A stretch of DNA of 64,000 nt, taken from contig NC_015167.1 in the NCBI RefSeq assembly GCF_000190595.1, positions 2,531,501 through 2,595,500 of the forward strand, read 5' to 3'. The position numbers and the translations under genes were made by a program. The notes beneath the pieces were generated by a model. It had not been told where the DNA came from and searched no databases. It saw nothing but the letters and a program-made list of their open reading frames with translations. The DNA comes from Cellulophaga lytica DSM 7489. GTDB taxonomy: Bacteria > Bacteroidota > Bacteroidia > Flavobacteriales > Flavobacteriaceae. Positions 39,380 through 47,077 of this stretch are shown in pieces; position 1 is the first letter of the stretch; the number at the start of each line of letters is the position of its first letter.

Positions 39380-41179
39380 ATGAAAAGGTTTTATGCAATA
39401 GCGTTTTTTTTCTTTACGTTAGGGTTGCTTTCTGCTGGTGCGCAAGTGTCTGCAGATTGTAGCAATGCTATACCTATTTGTAATAATACACCAACCAATG
39501 GAGGTACAGACGGTTATGGCGTAGATGATTTTGGTGGAGCTGCAGAAACTGGTTGTTTAGAGCGTACTTTGTCTGGAGCTATAGAGTCTAACTCTGCTTG
39601 GTATAGATTTAAAACTGGTGAAGCTGGGCAGTTGGGTTTTAATATTAGTTTTGATAGTGCAGAAGATTGGGATTATGCATTGTACAAAGCAAGTGATTGT
39701 GCTAATTTGGGAGACCCTGTACGATGTAATTTTTTTGATAATGGAGATGGAAATTCATTTACCGGAGTGGGAGAAGACCCAACAGGAGCAACAAATGTAC
39801 AGTATGAAGATTGGTTAACAGTTGAAGCTGGTGAAGAATACTACTTATTAATTAATAATTTTAGCAATGTAAATTCAGGTTTTTCAATTCAGTTTTCTGG
39901 GCAAATATTTATAGATTACCCAAATACCGCATTAGATTGTTCTATTATTAACAACTTATTGGGGCCGCCAATTGCGGCATGTGATGGGGATACTGTTAGG
40001 TTAGATGCTGCAACACCAAACACAGCATCATACACTTGGTATAGAGATATTGGTTTAGGGTTTACAGAAATTTTAGGAGAAACAAATGCGTTTTTAGATG
40101 TAACCACAGATGCATTGTATAGAGTAGAAGTAGTTTTAAATACTGCAGATGTTATTATTAGTGATGTACAAGTGGCTTTTTCTACAGCGCCAACCACAAG
40201 CCCAATTACGGATGTTACTTTGTGCCAGGAGGATTTACCCTTTAATTTAACTACTAAAAGCAGTGAAGCATTGGGTGGTCAGTCGGCATCAGATTTTATT
40301 ATTAGCTACCACGCAACCCCTGCAGATGCTATTAATAATTCTTTGAGTTTACCAATGCAATACAGTACTGCTGTTGGTGCAACTACTGTTTATGTTAGAA
40401 CTACATCTGTAAAAAATCCTAAATGTTTTGATGTTTCAGAGGAATTTGAGTTTACAGTGGTAGAAACACCTATTAGTACAATAAATACAGAAGTTTTTTT
40501 GTGTGAAGGTGCAACTTCAGAAACTATAGGAGAAACAAATCCAAATGTAAATTACAGTTACAATTGGCAAAGCGGAGAAACAACACCTACTATACAAGTG
40601 TTTTCTGCAGGAACTTATGTTTTAGATATTAGTAGTGTAGCTTTTGGTGTAACTTGTGTAAATACAATAGTTGTTGAAGTTGTTGTTGGGCAAACACCAT
40701 CTATATCTAATGTGCTAATTGAAGATTTTAATGCTAATAATACCGTAACTGTAGAAACTGATATTGATGGAAATTTTGAATATCAAATTGATACTTTACC
40801 AGTGCAGGATAGTAATGTTTTTACAAATGTTTCTGCTGGTGCTCATACGGTTACCATTATAGATAAAAATGGCTGCGGCTACGCTACAGAAGATATTGTA
40901 GTTGTTGGTTTTGATAATTATTTTACGCCTAACGGAGATGGTATAAACGATACTTGGAAAATAACCGGAATGGAATCTTTACAGCAGCCAGTTGTACATA
41001 TTTTTGATAGATATGGGAAGTTATTAAAAGAATTAAAAGGTCGTGACACTTGGAATGGTACTTACGGAGGAAGATTACTACCAGAGTCTGACTATTGGTT
41101 TAAGCTTAACTACATAAACACAGTAGGGGATAGGGTTACTGCAAAACATATTAGTAGTCATTTTACCTTAAAACGTTAA
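39380..41179 (+). CDS. T9SS type B sorting-domain surface protein (first paralogue)
   Basis: The 599-residue protein has a signal peptide (about 1-21, ending AGAQ) and a C-terminal gliding-motility/CHU_C type B sorting domain starting at FTPNGDGINDTW (515-526), with IFDRYGKLLKEL and the end SHFTLKR. It should be secreted through the type IX system and kept on the surface. Its N-terminal domain (about 25-180) is shared with the next gene: DCxxxIPxC, ETGCLE, SAWYRF, DWDYALYKASDC, and EEYYLLINN. The domain has regularly spaced Cys and probably a beta-sandwich fold. PKD- or Ig-like middle domains follow. The ligand is unknown. Confidence 0.88.
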   Translation: MKRFYAIAFFFFTLGLLSAGAQVSADCSNAIPICNNTPTNGGTDGYGVDDFGGAAETGCLERTLSGAIESNSAWYRFKTGEAGQLGFNISFDSAEDWDYALYKASDCANLGDPVRCNFFDNGDGNSFTGVGEDPTGATNVQYEDWLTVEAGEEYYLLINNFSNVNSGFSIQFSGQIFIDYPNTALDCSIINNLLGPPIAACDGDTVRLDAATPNTASYTWYRDIGLGFTEILGETNAFLDVTTDALYRVEVVLNTADVIISDVQVAFSTAPTTSPITDVTLCQEDLPFNLTTKSSEALGGQSASDFIISYHATPADAINNSLSLPMQYSTAVGATTVYVRTTSVKNPKCFDVSEEFEFTVVETPISTINTEVFLCEGATSETIGETNPNVNYSYNWQSGETTPTIQVFSAGTYVLDISSVAFGVTCVNTIVVEVVVGQTPSISNVLIEDFNANNTVTVETDIDGNFEYQIDTLPVQDSNVFTNVSAGAHTVTIIDKNGCGYATEDIVVVGFDNYFTPNGDGINDTWKITGMESLQQPVVHIFDRYGKLLKELKGRDTWNGTYGGRLLPESDYWFKLNYINTVGDRVTAKHISSHFTLKR

Positions 41180-41235: not shown

Positions 41236-41307
41236 TAATGCAATAAATTTTATTATTTGCCGCTTATAATATGGTTATGTAACATCCCAACCAATGCAAT
41301 ATTTTTT

Positions 41308-42690
41308 ATGCGAGCACAATACAAACTAGTAGTAGGATTTCTTTTTTTTACACTAATTAGCAATGCGCAATTTACCCCAGATTGTAGGTCATCTATACCA
41401 GTGTGCGGTGATGCACCAATTAGCGGTATAGCAGATGGCCGTGGAGATATAGATGATTTTGATCCAGATGTTATACGCCAAACTGGTTGTTTAGAAAAGG
41501 GTAGTAATAGTTCTGCAAATATAGAAAACAACACATCTTGGTATGTTTTTAGAGCTTTAAAAGATGGCACTATTGGGTTTGATATTTCTGCGGATACAGA
41601 TACAGCAGAATGGGATTTTGCCGTATATGGCCCAGATACAGATTGTGCTAGTATAAGTAACGGTACTGCGCAACCAGTACGTTGCAATTATGAAGCTAAC
41701 AATACAGCTTTTACAGGTTTAGGTACCAACCCAGAATCTGGTCAAGAAGGTTTTTCTTTTGTTAAAGGAAGTAAAAATACATACGATGAATTGTTAGATA
41801 TAGCAGAAGGTGAAATTTATTATATTTTAATAAATAACTACAATACTAATTTTGATGGAGATCCAGAACCTTTTACCTTAACTTTTACAGAAGATGTAGA
41901 TGCGTTAGATTGTACGTTTAGAGATGAGTTTTTAGGGTTAGATGTAAATGCCTGTGAGGGAGATCCAGATGTGGTTTTAAATGCTTTTAGGTCTCCGGTA
42001 GGGCCAGATGTTGCAAGTGTTAGGTGGTCTGTAGATTATGATGATGATGGTACTATTGATGATCCAAATTTAGCAACAGGAACAGAATATACGGTTACTA
42101 GCCCAAATACAGGTAGGTATTTTGTAGAGATTACTACAGCTTCTGGAGCTCCGCCTACAGTTACAGATGATATTTTAATAAATTTTCACGCACCTCCAAA
42201 TCCTGCTGATATAGAAATTACAGTTATAGATTATTTAGTAGATAGAAACAAAATAGAAGTTCTTGTTAATGGTACTAGTGAGTATGAATATGCTATTAAT
42301 GGTGGAGAGTTTCAAGATGAAACACTTTTTCATGATGTGCCACCCGGACAAAATACTTTAATTGTAAATGATAAATATGGATGTGGTCAATCTGAAGAAA
42401 TTCCGTTTTTAGTAATTGGCTATCCAAAGTTTTTTACTCCAAATGGAGATGGAGTACATGATGGTTGGAATGTTTTAGGTATTGAAGAGTTAGTAGACGC
42501 CAAAGTTTATATTTACGATAGGTATGGTAAACTTTTAAAACAATTAGGGCCTGGAGTAACTTGGAATGGTATGTTTAATGGTAAAAAAATGCCAGAATCT
42601 GATTATTGGTTTCGTATGGAATATGCAGAGCCAGAGGAAGGTGTAATTGTAGCTAAAACTCTGCAAAACCATTTTACTTTAAAAAGGTGA
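41308..42690 (+). CDS. T9SS type B sorting-domain surface protein (second paralogue)
   Basis: The start at MRAQYKLVV (41308) gives a clean signal peptide ending SNAQ; the longer frame from 41257 does not. The 460-residue product shares the N-terminal Cys-rich domain of its upstream neighbour (DCRSSIPVC, QTGCLEKG, TSWYVFRA, EWDFAVYGPDTDC, EIYYILINNYN). It also has the C-terminal type B sorting domain (FTPNGDGVHDGWNV at about 376, IYDRYGKLLKQL, NHFTLKR at the end). The middle part is shorter, with a DYDDDGTIDDPN segment that could bind calcium. A tandem duplication is the simplest explanation. It ends at a long bidirectional terminator. Confidence 0.88.
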   Translation: MRAQYKLVVGFLFFTLISNAQFTPDCRSSIPVCGDAPISGIADGRGDIDDFDPDVIRQTGCLEKGSNSSANIENNTSWYVFRALKDGTIGFDISADTDTAEWDFAVYGPDTDCASISNGTAQPVRCNYEANNTAFTGLGTNPESGQEGFSFVKGSKNTYDELLDIAEGEIYYILINNYNTNFDGDPEPFTLTFTEDVDALDCTFRDEFLGLDVNACEGDPDVVLNAFRSPVGPDVASVRWSVDYDDDGTIDDPNLATGTEYTVTSPNTGRYFVEITTASGAPPTVTDDILINFHAPPNPADIEITVIDYLVDRNKIEVLVNGTSEYEYAINGGEFQDETLFHDVPPGQNTLIVNDKYGCGQSEEIPFLVIGYPKFFTPNGDGVHDGWNVLGIEELVDAKVYIYDRYGKLLKQLGPGVTWNGMFNGKKMPESDYWFRMEYAEPEEGVIVAKTLQNHFTLKR

Positions 42691-42766: not shown

Positions 42767-44269
42767 TTAAAAGTTTACAGTGTAACCTATAGTTACATTT
42801 GTGTTTGCTGCATTTACTAAGGCTGGTGTTGTTAAGCCTGCATTAAATAGTTGTTTGTTTACATCTTGCTCTGTTCTATTATAAGCAATATCTAGCCTGT
42901 TAGGGCCAAAAGAGTAGCCAAAACCTAAAGAAAATCCGTTTAAATCACCAATAGTATATTCATCTTCATACGGACTTTGTTCATACCTGTAACCAGCTCT
43001 TAAACTAATATCTTTAATTCTGTACTCACCACCAAGTCTAACTGTAGAAACAGTTCCTAACTCATTAGATATCTCATTATTAGCAGCGGCAAAACCAGGA
43101 TCGTTAGTAGGTTTAATTTCAGCCTGACTCATATCTTGAAAGCCGTAGTCTAAACTCAATAAACCATCTTTTCCAAATACCACAGCTAAACTACCAGTAA
43201 CTTTACTAGGTGTTTTTATAGTGTATCTTTCATATACATTTATAATGTCAAAATTTATATAGTTTATGTCATCATCAGCCAAATCAGAAGAAATTCTTTG
43301 TGATGTATCATCTGTTAATCTGTACCAAGTAGGAGACTCATAACTGGCACCAACTCTTACCATATCGTTTAACTTAGCAATAGCGCCCAATGCAAATGAA
43401 AATCCATTACCTTCTGTATGTAAATAATTGTCAAAAGTAGTTCTGGTTATGTCTGTACCTACAGTGTAACCAGTTTCTGTAAACTCTGTGTACTTGTCAT
43501 AGTTTATGCTATGAAAATTTAAAGATGCACCTAAATATAAATTGTCTTGGTATTGGGTGGCAAAATCTAAAATAAATTTACTGTTATATCCTGTAGTATT
43601 TTCAAAATAGTCTTGATTAACAGTATTGTAAGTTGCATTGCTTACATAGTCTATGTTATTGTCGTTAGCCTCATCTACAGGGTCTATAATGCCTCCGTAG
43701 TAACCTAAAAATGCTTGCTGATCTACAAAACCTAAGTTTCTTCCAATATCTAAATAAGCTTCTTCTAGGTATTCTCCGTCTCTTTTAAGTAAAGGTCCAA
43801 AGGGCACACCATTAGCGTAGCTTAAAAAATACTGATCTATACCTTGGTTGCTAACACCAGATATAGAAAAATTATTATCAAAATTCTGAACCAAATCATA
43901 ATTTGCAGCAATGGCAATTTTTTTCCAATCAGAGTTGTTAGACTTAAAAACTAATACACCACCAATTTGATTAATTTCTAGGTCGTTTCTTGTAGCCTCT
44001 CTGTTGGTTCTAAAATAATTTGCATCATTACTTTTATTGTAATTAGATAGCGTTGCAGAAAATAAATGATTGTTAAAAACTGCGGCACCAGCAGGATTTG
44101 TGTTTAGAGCAGATAAATCTCCACCTAAAGCTCCAAAAGCACCACTCATACCTTGGTAGCGTGCTGTACCAATAAGGTTTTGTTGGTTGTACTGTAGTAC
44201 ATCGTTTATATTTTGTGCACTAGCAATAGTACATACCAAGCCAAACGCTAAGGCGATATAATTTTTCAT
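42767..44269 (-). CDS. OmpP1/FadL/TodX-family outer-membrane protein
   Basis: The 500-residue protein has a signal peptide (about 1-18, ending ASAQ) and the family's N-terminal hatch sequence: GTARYQGMSGAFGALGGDLSALNTNPAGAAVF (within 36-66), where the NPAG motif is characteristic. Amphipathic strands then continue to a C-terminal NVTIGYTVNF. FadL-type proteins pass hydrophobic compounds such as fatty acids or aromatics across the outer membrane by diffusion; the substrate here is unknown. It lies 43 bases downstream of the interrupted lipoprotein gene on the same strand and may share its transcript. Confidence 0.88.
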   Translation of the reverse strand: MKNYIALAFGLVCTIASAQNINDVLQYNQQNLIGTARYQGMSGAFGALGGDLSALNTNPAGAAVFNNHLFSATLSNYNKSNDANYFRTNREATRNDLEINQIGGVLVFKSNNSDWKKIAIAANYDLVQNFDNNFSISGVSNQGIDQYFLSYANGVPFGPLLKRDGEYLEEAYLDIGRNLGFVDQQAFLGYYGGIIDPVDEANDNNIDYVSNATYNTVNQDYFENTTGYNSKFILDFATQYQDNLYLGASLNFHSINYDKYTEFTETGYTVGTDITRTTFDNYLHTEGNGFSFALGAIAKLNDMVRVGASYESPTWYRLTDDTSQRISSDLADDDINYINFDIINVYERYTIKTPSKVTGSLAVVFGKDGLLSLDYGFQDMSQAEIKPTNDPGFAAANNEISNELGTVSTVRLGGEYRIKDISLRAGYRYEQSPYEDEYTIGDLNGFSLGFGYSFGPNRLDIAYNRTEQDVNKQLFNAGLTTPALVNAANTNVTIGYTVNF

Positions 44270-44312: not shown

Positions 44313-45500
44313 TTATCTACCTCTACCTGAAGATCTACTGCTAGATGATCTACCACCACCTGAAGAGGACCTTCCGCTAGATGAAGACCTACTGCTAGAA
44401 GAGCTTCTTGCAGAAGATGATCTAGAAGAACTACTACTTCTTGTGGTTGTTCCGGAGCTTCTAGAGCTGCTTCCAGAGCTTCTGTATGTTCCAGAACTTC
44501 TTGATGAAGAAGATGGTCTTGTGTATGTAGAGCTAGATTTAGAAGACCTTGTGGTTCTAGTAGTTGTAGGTCTGCTAGAACTACTATTGCTGCTTCTACT
44601 GTATGTATTACCTCTATTATATGTATTGCTTCTAGATGTGCTGTACCTAGGTTGTGTTCTTGTGGTACGACTTGTTCTGTATGTTCTATTACGGTTTACT
44701 CCATCTACATTAACACTATTAGACCTGTAGCTGTTGTTGCTTCTGTATGATGTTGCAGATTTCCCAGATCTGTAATTTAAATTAGATCTAGATACACCTG
44801 TGTTTAGATTAGACCTGCTAGAACGTGAATATGCATTTCTATTGTTGGCATATATAACATTGTCATAACGTCCTCTTCTGCTGTTATTGTAAGCATAAGA
44901 GTTTCTTCCGTAATTATTATAGTATCTGTTGTAGTAAGGATTGTTAAATCTTCTGTTATAGTAAGGATTTCCCCATCCGTAGCCATAACCAAATCCACCC
45001 CAGCCCCATCCAAAGCTGTTGTAACCTCTATATCTCCAATTGTTCCATCCCCAATATGGACTTCCCCAGCTGTTATAAAAGCCAAATCCGCCATATCCGT
45101 ATCCCCAAGGATCATAAAAACCTCCGTAGTTTGCCCATCCGTTGTCATGAATATTAATGCTAACCTGTGTTGCATTGTCTCCCCAACCTGGGTTTCCGTT
45201 GTAGTTATTTGCTATTTCATCATCTTGCACATCACTGTAATACTCATCTACATCAGTAAAAACCTCTCCGTCTAAAATAGCGCTATACTCATTGGCTTGT
45301 TGTCCAAAAAAGTCTTGGTATTCACTATTGTTATTGTCAGGAGCTTGCTCTACCGTTTATGTTGTGTTAGAGGAGTATATGCCGTCATTGTCATAATAAG
45401 AAGCTTCTTGGTAAGAACCACAAGAAACAATTAATGAGCCAACTACGATGCCAAAAGCAACTTTTTTTATTTTCTGGATGGATTGGGAATGTATCATCAT
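44313..45500 (-). pseudogene. Gly/Tyr/Trp- then Arg/Ser-rich lipoprotein, interrupted by an in-frame TAA
   Basis: One continuous minus-strand frame runs from ATG at 45498-45500 to the stop at 44313, 395 codons, broken only by a TAA at 45357-45359 (codon 48). Before the stop there is a normal lipoprotein signal (GSLIVSC-GSYQEA). After it the frame continues as TVEQAPDNNNSEYQDFFGQQ, an acidic stretch, then about 90 residues rich in Gly, Tyr, Trp and Asn (GFGYGYGWGNPYYNRR), then about 180 residues dominated by Arg, Ser and Thr. The first ATG after the stop (45230) has no signal peptide, so separate translation there would not restore export. A single base change, read-through or a sequencing error could each explain the stop. 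Confidence 0.75.
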
Positions 45501-45598
45501 ATTAAATTTAATTGTTGTACAATGTAAAAATAGTTAGTTTTGTCGAACTATAATTTATTTATTGATAAAAACACAATATTTGTGCCAAACTACTAATA

Positions 45599-47077
45599 AT
45601 GAGCAAGAAGTTAACTAAAAGAGCCGAAGATTATTCCAAATGGTATAATGAACTAGTTGTAAAAGCAGATCTTGCTGAAAATTCTGCAGTTCGTGGATGT
45701 ATGGTTATTAAACCATACGGATATGCTATATGGGAAAAAATGCAAGCAGAGCTAGATAGAATGTTTAAAGAAACAGGTCATGAAAATGCATACTTTCCTT
45801 TATTTGTTCCTAAGAGTTTGTTTGAAGCCGAAGAAAAAAATGCAGAAGGTTTTGCTAAAGAATGCGCTGTTGTTACACACTACAGATTGCAAAATGATCC
45901 TGATAAACCAGGTAAATTAAGAGTAGACCCTAATGCTAAGTTAGAGGAGGAGTTAGTAGTGCGCCCAACTAGTGAAGCTATTATTTGGAATACTTATAAA
46001 GGTTGGATACAGTCTTACAGAGATTTACCATTATTAATAAACCAATGGGCCAATGTTGTACGTTGGGAAATGAGAACAAGATTATTTTTACGTACTGCAG
46101 AATTTTTATGGCAAGAGGGCCATACGGCACACGCTACAGAAAATGAAGCTATAGCAGAAGCAGAACAAATGATGGATGTGTATGCAGATTTTGCAGAAGA
46201 CTTTATGGCAGTACCTGTTGTAAAAGGATTAAAAACACCAAGTGAGCGTTTTGCAGGAGCAGTAGAAACTTATTGTATAGAGGCTTTAATGCAAGATGGT
46301 AAAGCATTACAAGCAGGTACATCTCACTTTTTAGGTCAGAACTTTGCTAAAGCTTTTGATGTTAAATTTGCTTCTAAAGAAGGAAAGCAAGAACACGTTT
46401 GGGCAACTTCTTGGGGAGTGTCTACACGCTTAATGGGAGCATTAATTATGACTCATAGTGATGATAACGGATTGGTTTTGCCTCCTAAATTAGCGCCAAT
46501 ACAGGTTGTAATTGTTCCTATATATAAAGGAGATGAGCAATTAGATGCTATTTCTGAAAAAGTAAACCCGTTAGTTAAAGAGCTAAGAGCTAAAGGTATT
46601 TCTGTTAAATTTGATAATAGAGATACACATAAGCCAGGATTTAAATTTAACGAGTACGAGCTTAAAGGGGTTCCTGTGCGTATTGCAATAGGTAAAAGAG
46701 ATTTGGAAAATGGCACCTATGAGGTAGCACGTAGAGATACTTTAGAAAAAGAAATTGTAAATGCAGATGATGTTATTGGTAAAATTGAGTTTTTATTGGA
46801 TGATATTCAGAAAAACATTTACAAAAAAGCTGCAGACTACAGAGCCAATCATATTACAGAAGTAAACTCTTATGATGAGTTTAAAGATGTTTTAGAAAAT
46901 AAAGGCGGATTTATATCTGCACATTGGGACGGTACTGAAGAAACCGAAGAAAAGATTAAGAATGAAACAAAAGCAACTATTAGATGTATTCCTATGGATG
47001 CTAAAGAAGAAAATGGTAGTTGTATTATAACAGGTAAACCCTCTAAAAACAGGGTGTTATTTGCAAAAGCATATTAA
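45599..47077 (+). CDS. proS: Prolyl-tRNA synthetase (archaeal/eukaryotic-type)
   Basis: ProS charges tRNA-Pro with proline. The 492-residue class IIa synthetase is of the short archaeal/eukaryotic type, without the editing insertion of the long bacterial enzyme. It shows [23 protein letters not shown] at the front, motif 2 around [31 protein letters not shown], and motif 3 with [25 protein letters not shown]. An anticodon-binding domain ([11 protein letters not shown] onwards) and the type-specific C-terminal domain follow; that tail retains isolated Cys residues, ending in FAKAY. It is followed by the tRNA-Glu genes. Confidence 0.96.

Follow-up and report, generated by a model that had tools for sequence, protein, structure and literature searches.

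The lipoprotein gene that precedes a FadL/TodX-type porin gene in Cellulophaga lytica DSM 7489 carries, in our reading, a nonsense allele of recent origin, null or almost null, which would have arisen when a single C-to-T transition struck this gene, the first of a two-gene unit (probability about 0.85). The null allele of this lipoprotein is probably a strain-level one. The gene lies in a window of 64,000 nucleotides (the whole stretch of DNA that was analysed), which comes from a genome deposited as a single contig of 3,765,936 bases, and the coordinates of the features are collected in Table 1.

On the minus strand, the frame running from the ATG at 45500 down to 44313 comprises 395 codons and a final TAA, and its translation contains a single internal stop, codon 48. 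The preliminary description had reported one TAA at 45359-45357 interrupting an otherwise open frame, with no frame change required, and both the sequence and the translation bear this out. The 347 codons that follow the stop are all open, an outcome to which base composition alone gives a chance probability of about 1e-11, and the post-stop frame was open in none of 20,000 first-order Markov sequences. Since homologues span both sides of codon 48, both halves are coding, and they form one gene and not two. It had also been predicted that an annotation built on open reading frames would miss the lipoprotein origin, which is indeed what happens with the mechanical ORF list (at least 80 aa): the sole ORF listed in this frame is the GTG ORF of 305 aa, whose product would be without the lipoprotein signal. 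No ATG occurs in frame after the codon-48 stop, the first of ATG, GTG or TTG being the GTG at 45230.

Table 1. Coordinates of the features of the lipoprotein-porin-proS locus in the window
Feature	Position	Strand	Basis
Lipoprotein gene, broken	44313..45500	-	395 codons, one internal TAA; homologues open across
Signal peptide and lipobox cysteine C27	45420..45500	-	Translation; S26, C27 and G28 invariant in 18/18 aligned relatives
In-frame TAA, codon 48	45357..45359	-	In a linker of variable sequence, a short way past the conserved block SYYDNDGIYS
GTG ORF, 305 aa	44313..45230	-	Remnant of the lipoprotein gene; relatives' genes start elsewhere
FadL/TodX-type outer-membrane protein gene, intact	42767..44269	-	PF03349, 45.1 bits against a cut-off of 29.7
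proS, proline--tRNA ligase, divergent	45599..47077	+	TIGR00408, 554 bits against a cut-off of 437
Element TTTGGCAC-N5-TTG, conserved, before the start of the lipoprotein gene	45574..45589	-	Promoter-like, lead only

The first 27 residues of the translation form a lipoprotein signal with the lipobox VSCG at its end, C27 being encoded at 45422-45420. The ATG at 45500 had been proposed as the start of such a signal, and this is upheld by the lipobox itself, which is invariant in all 18 aligned relatives. In these relatives, picked from the named loci, the block from S34 to Y42 (SYYDNDGIY) is also invariant; more distant relatives keep the lipobox cysteine while the neighbouring residues vary, and G28 can differ. 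The intact protein is laid out as a lipobox, an acidic and Tyr-rich head, a Gly/Trp/Tyr-rich middle and an Arg/Ser-rich tail, and an outer-membrane location is predicted for it. Lipoproteins exported to the surface in Bacteroidota typically carry an acidic export signal directly after the lipobox cysteine. The residues that follow C27 here are GSYQEAS, with no immediate acidic run as judged by eye from the translation only. With the first 181 residues as query, every Pfam model stayed below its threshold, and NCBIfam listed no family up to an E-value of 1. For one relative, residues 1 to 167 were modelled with AlphaFold2 from 18 rows; the mean pLDDT was 48.7, with two helices and no confident fold, and such a low value is in keeping with a low-complexity protein and proves nothing. 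Genes of this type go under the name 'vitellogenin', and a literature search on that name gave nothing usable. On sequence comparison the protein is an uncharacterised lipoprotein, widely conserved across Flavobacteriaceae.

This conservation was followed at several distances. A search of the 60 nearest genomes, counting the source genome, with residues 1 to 181 of the lipoprotein gave matches in 35 of them at E <= 0.01, and the 34 other matches all span the codon-48 site with no stop inside, the weakest having an E-value of 0.002; they include all 17 other searched genomes of the genus. The nearest named relatives of the source genome are Cellulophaga. In the 80 named loci that were kept (the best 80 of 195 found, from genomes partly shared with the 60-nearest set), the frame is uninterrupted over at least 375 codons without exception, and each of the 80 genes is followed, on the same strand, by a FadL-type porin gene and preceded by a divergent proS. 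The alignment with Flavobacteriaceae orthologues called for in the preliminary description therefore finds the relatives intact across codon 48. Two profiles of the lipoprotein, A1 and A2, matched 351 and 357 of the 397 sampled family genomes, respectively, with 150 matches listed for each. The window locus shares with the other lipoprotein loci of the family that lie beside a FadL/TodX-type porin gene and proS the same lipobox, conserved blocks, neighbours and gene order, but its lipoprotein copy is interrupted.

The codon alignment shows CAA in the four nearest relatives where the source genome has TAA, one transition away, in agreement with the earlier proposal that the stop lies one base from a sense codon. 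Seven more distant rows, in which the alignment is less sure, have AAA, CAA, CAG, GTC or CGA in this column. With a third species as outgroup, the change from CAA to TAA is placed on the lineage of the source genome. As expected of a single-stop pseudogene, the orthologues are open at and beyond the site and the ancestral sense codon is one step away. On the nonsense reading, the transition would turn CAA into TAA at codon 48 and translation would end there, giving a precursor of 47 residues and, after processing at C27, a lipidated peptide of about 21 residues. The remainder of the frame would yield no mature protein, because it has neither an ATG nor an export signal, and the function of the lipoprotein would be lost.

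Concerning the age of the stop, the dN/dS ratio between the gene and that of its nearest relative (Nei-Gojobori) is 0.12 for the part that precedes the stop, while the part behind it gives 0.08 and 0.10; with values of about 0.1 on both sides, this comparison shows no relaxation of selection beyond the stop. Over the whole gene, the four pairs that include the source gene range from 0.09 to 0.14 and the six without it from 0.08 to 0.11. Polarised changes amount to 13.5 non-synonymous for 42.5 synonymous on its own branch and to 23.5 for 52.5 on the sister branch. If 20% of the branch had been unconstrained, a count of at most 14 non-synonymous changes would be expected with P = 0.0014, while 5 to 10% is still compatible; these tests are rough, synonymous sites being saturated in places and the polarised count being a lower bound. 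Since selection is similar on both sides, either the stop arose recently or the protein continues to be produced. Absence of relaxed selection is expected if the stop is young; it dates the break and does not exclude a pseudogene. Other strains of the species, HI1 and CECT 8139, have been published (PMC4223467; PMC5589527), and CECT 8139 is reported to be 99.2% identical to LIM-21 and to HI1 (PMC5589527), with which an origin of the stop within the species therefore fits. We infer that the stop arose within the species or in culture.

The porin gene begins 43 bp downstream of the lipoprotein gene, and its copy in the source genome is stop-free. Among NCBIfam models it comes closest to PorV_fam, with a score under the cut-off, and a search of solved structures returned no match to the porin at E up to 1. 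The two genes are probably co-transcribed as a conserved two-gene unit. Because the neighbourhood is conserved in 80/80 loci, the intact lipoprotein most likely works with the porin, and a polar effect of the nonsense allele on the porin is possible. On the plus strand, two adjacent genes at 39380-41179 and 41257-42690, convergent with the porin gene, code for products that each contain a T9SS type B sorting domain (TIGR04131). On the other side, the intergenic region between proS and the lipoprotein gene (45501-45598) is extremely conserved, its aligned part being identical in the source genome and the two nearest species. The TGGCAC-N5-TTG element is present 80-90 nt before the lipoprotein start in 75 of the 80 loci and could serve proS; it resembles the consensus of a sigma-54 -24/-12 site, and the genome has one Sigma54_DBD gene. 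The same element is also a partial dyad, GCACAA-N3-TTGTG.

A stop was found in the same gene of one further genome. G126, which belongs to another genus and was picked out by its short frame, carries a single TAA in frame, at codon 179, in its lipoprotein gene (L169:1675-2941, G126:C2), after which the frame is open through the Arg/Ser-rich tail. The matches listed for A1, A2 and the 60-nearest search come from 248 distinct genomes, and among these listed matches the source genome is the only one with a stop inside the match. Two short frames among the A2 matches, in G271 and G365, end 2 and 8 bases from a contig end and were not counted as broken because they reach nearly to it. As a control, the porin matched in 377 of the 397 genomes, and none of the 150 porin genes listed has a stop, some of these genomes showing two porin matches that are possibly split genes. 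The difference between 2/248 lipoprotein genes and 0/150 porin genes, among the matches listed, is not significant (P = 0.53), and the source genome itself prompted the search; when it is set aside, 1/247 lipoprotein genes has a stop. We read the two stops as rare independent losses of a dispensable gene.

The preliminary description had left four options for the stop: a recent nonsense mutation, phase variation, read-through and an assembly error. The first is well supported by the intact relatives, the single transition and the unrelaxed selection, the second is not supported, the third gained no direct support, and the fourth is unlikely given the published coverage. If the deposited sequence were wrong at this base, through base calling or assembly, and the strain itself intact, that would account for a stop seen in a single genome and at a single base, within a frame otherwise perfectly preserved. 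Errors of 454 sequencing do not usually take the form of an isolated substitution away from a homopolymer. Among comparable ORFs, the surrounding DNA is not full of errors or decay, since over 200 kb only 1 of the 100 ORFs matched to the nearest named relative (G011) is broken in its body, and it is the lipoprotein gene. This comparison started from 173 ORFs of that relative (at least 80 aa, ATG), of which 100 matched at >=60% identity and formed the basis of the count, the other 73 having no such match; three were flagged, namely the lipoprotein gene, one with a stop at residue 808 of 809 and one with 84% coverage. In the reverse direction, 99 of 159 ORFs of the source genome matched, the other 60 had no such match, and four were flagged, with stops in the relative at 276 of 279, 246 of 253, 212 of 213 and codon 3 of 159; stops located at an end and the coverage shortfall were not counted as body breaks. 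The genome paper of strain LIM-21T gives Illumina coverage of 1,605.2x and 454 coverage of 22.9x, combined 1,628x, states that fewer than 1 error per 100,000 was left after polishing with Illumina data, and counts 19 pseudogenes (PMC3111997); LIM-21T is DSM 7489 according to another study (PMC3531331). This coverage makes a false base call unlikely, and we accordingly give an error a small probability. The latter study also reports that the type-strain stocks DSM 7489 and CIP 103822 differ in gliding and iridescence (PMC3531331), and the stocks may therefore differ genetically.

In the case where the stop was read through, suppressed or bypassed, a functional lipoprotein would still be made. 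The similar selection on both sides of codon 48 fits continued production equally well as a recent loss. The stop of G126, a second TAA that interrupts this gene in frame but elsewhere, is the one fact that leaves room for a bolder reading, and may mean that the gene tolerates stops for some other reason. The family would then put up with ochre codons in its frame through re-initiation or read-through at a low level, the lipoprotein being made despite the TAA, which we consider very improbable. A stop conserved among close relatives, the trait of programmed read-through or recoding, was found in 0/4 of the nearest relatives, and the positions of the two stops differ. No ochre or other stop-complementary anticodon was present among the tRNAs found at 38 places (RF00005 search, ARAGORN), where 150 of 325 candidates were scored, so that a divergent tRNA could be missed. 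Taken together, these observations leave read-through with only a slight chance. Surface proteins of bacteria are often variable, from which a phase-variable or switchable off-state could be proposed; here the change is a point substitution, and the site has neither a tract of simple repeats nor a switch. Near the stop only one direct-repeat pair of 8 nt, one of 10 nt and a weak overlapping palindrome were seen, none suitable for switching, and no second or silent lipoprotein copy was detected in the genome at E up to 0.01. With neither a suitable repeat nor a copy to recombine with, phase variation was rejected as extremely unlikely. The remaining alternative, a gene that starts at the GTG 45230 with a non-coding upstream part, is how the mechanical ORF list presents the gene. 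The preliminary description had held that orthologues beginning at the equivalent of 45230 would speak for it, but the 29 relatives that were read and the 18 that were aligned carry the upstream lipoprotein part, the latter with its invariant lipobox, and the upstream 47 codons are those with the dN/dS of 0.12 given above. This start is thus refuted by the homologues, and we give it next to no credit.

The recent nonsense allele resembles the strain-specific nonsense pseudogenes of other bacteria, in that the gene has one in-frame stop, is otherwise intact and is open in relatives. It is of the same kind, but it affects a gene whose conservation within the family is very wide, and the break gives the impression of being very young. 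The literature searched gave no account joining in-frame stop codon, pseudogene, lipoprotein and phase variation in Bacteroidetes. The allele of the reference strain would thus be an ordinary gene loss and not a new kind of genetic trick. An ORF caller would give at this place a signal-less protein of 305 aa, or nothing, and studies of surface, gliding and iridescence in the C. lytica type strain may start without a lipoprotein common to 351 of the 397 sampled family genomes. For the family, the locus points to an uncharacterised and very stable lipoprotein-porin pair beside proS.
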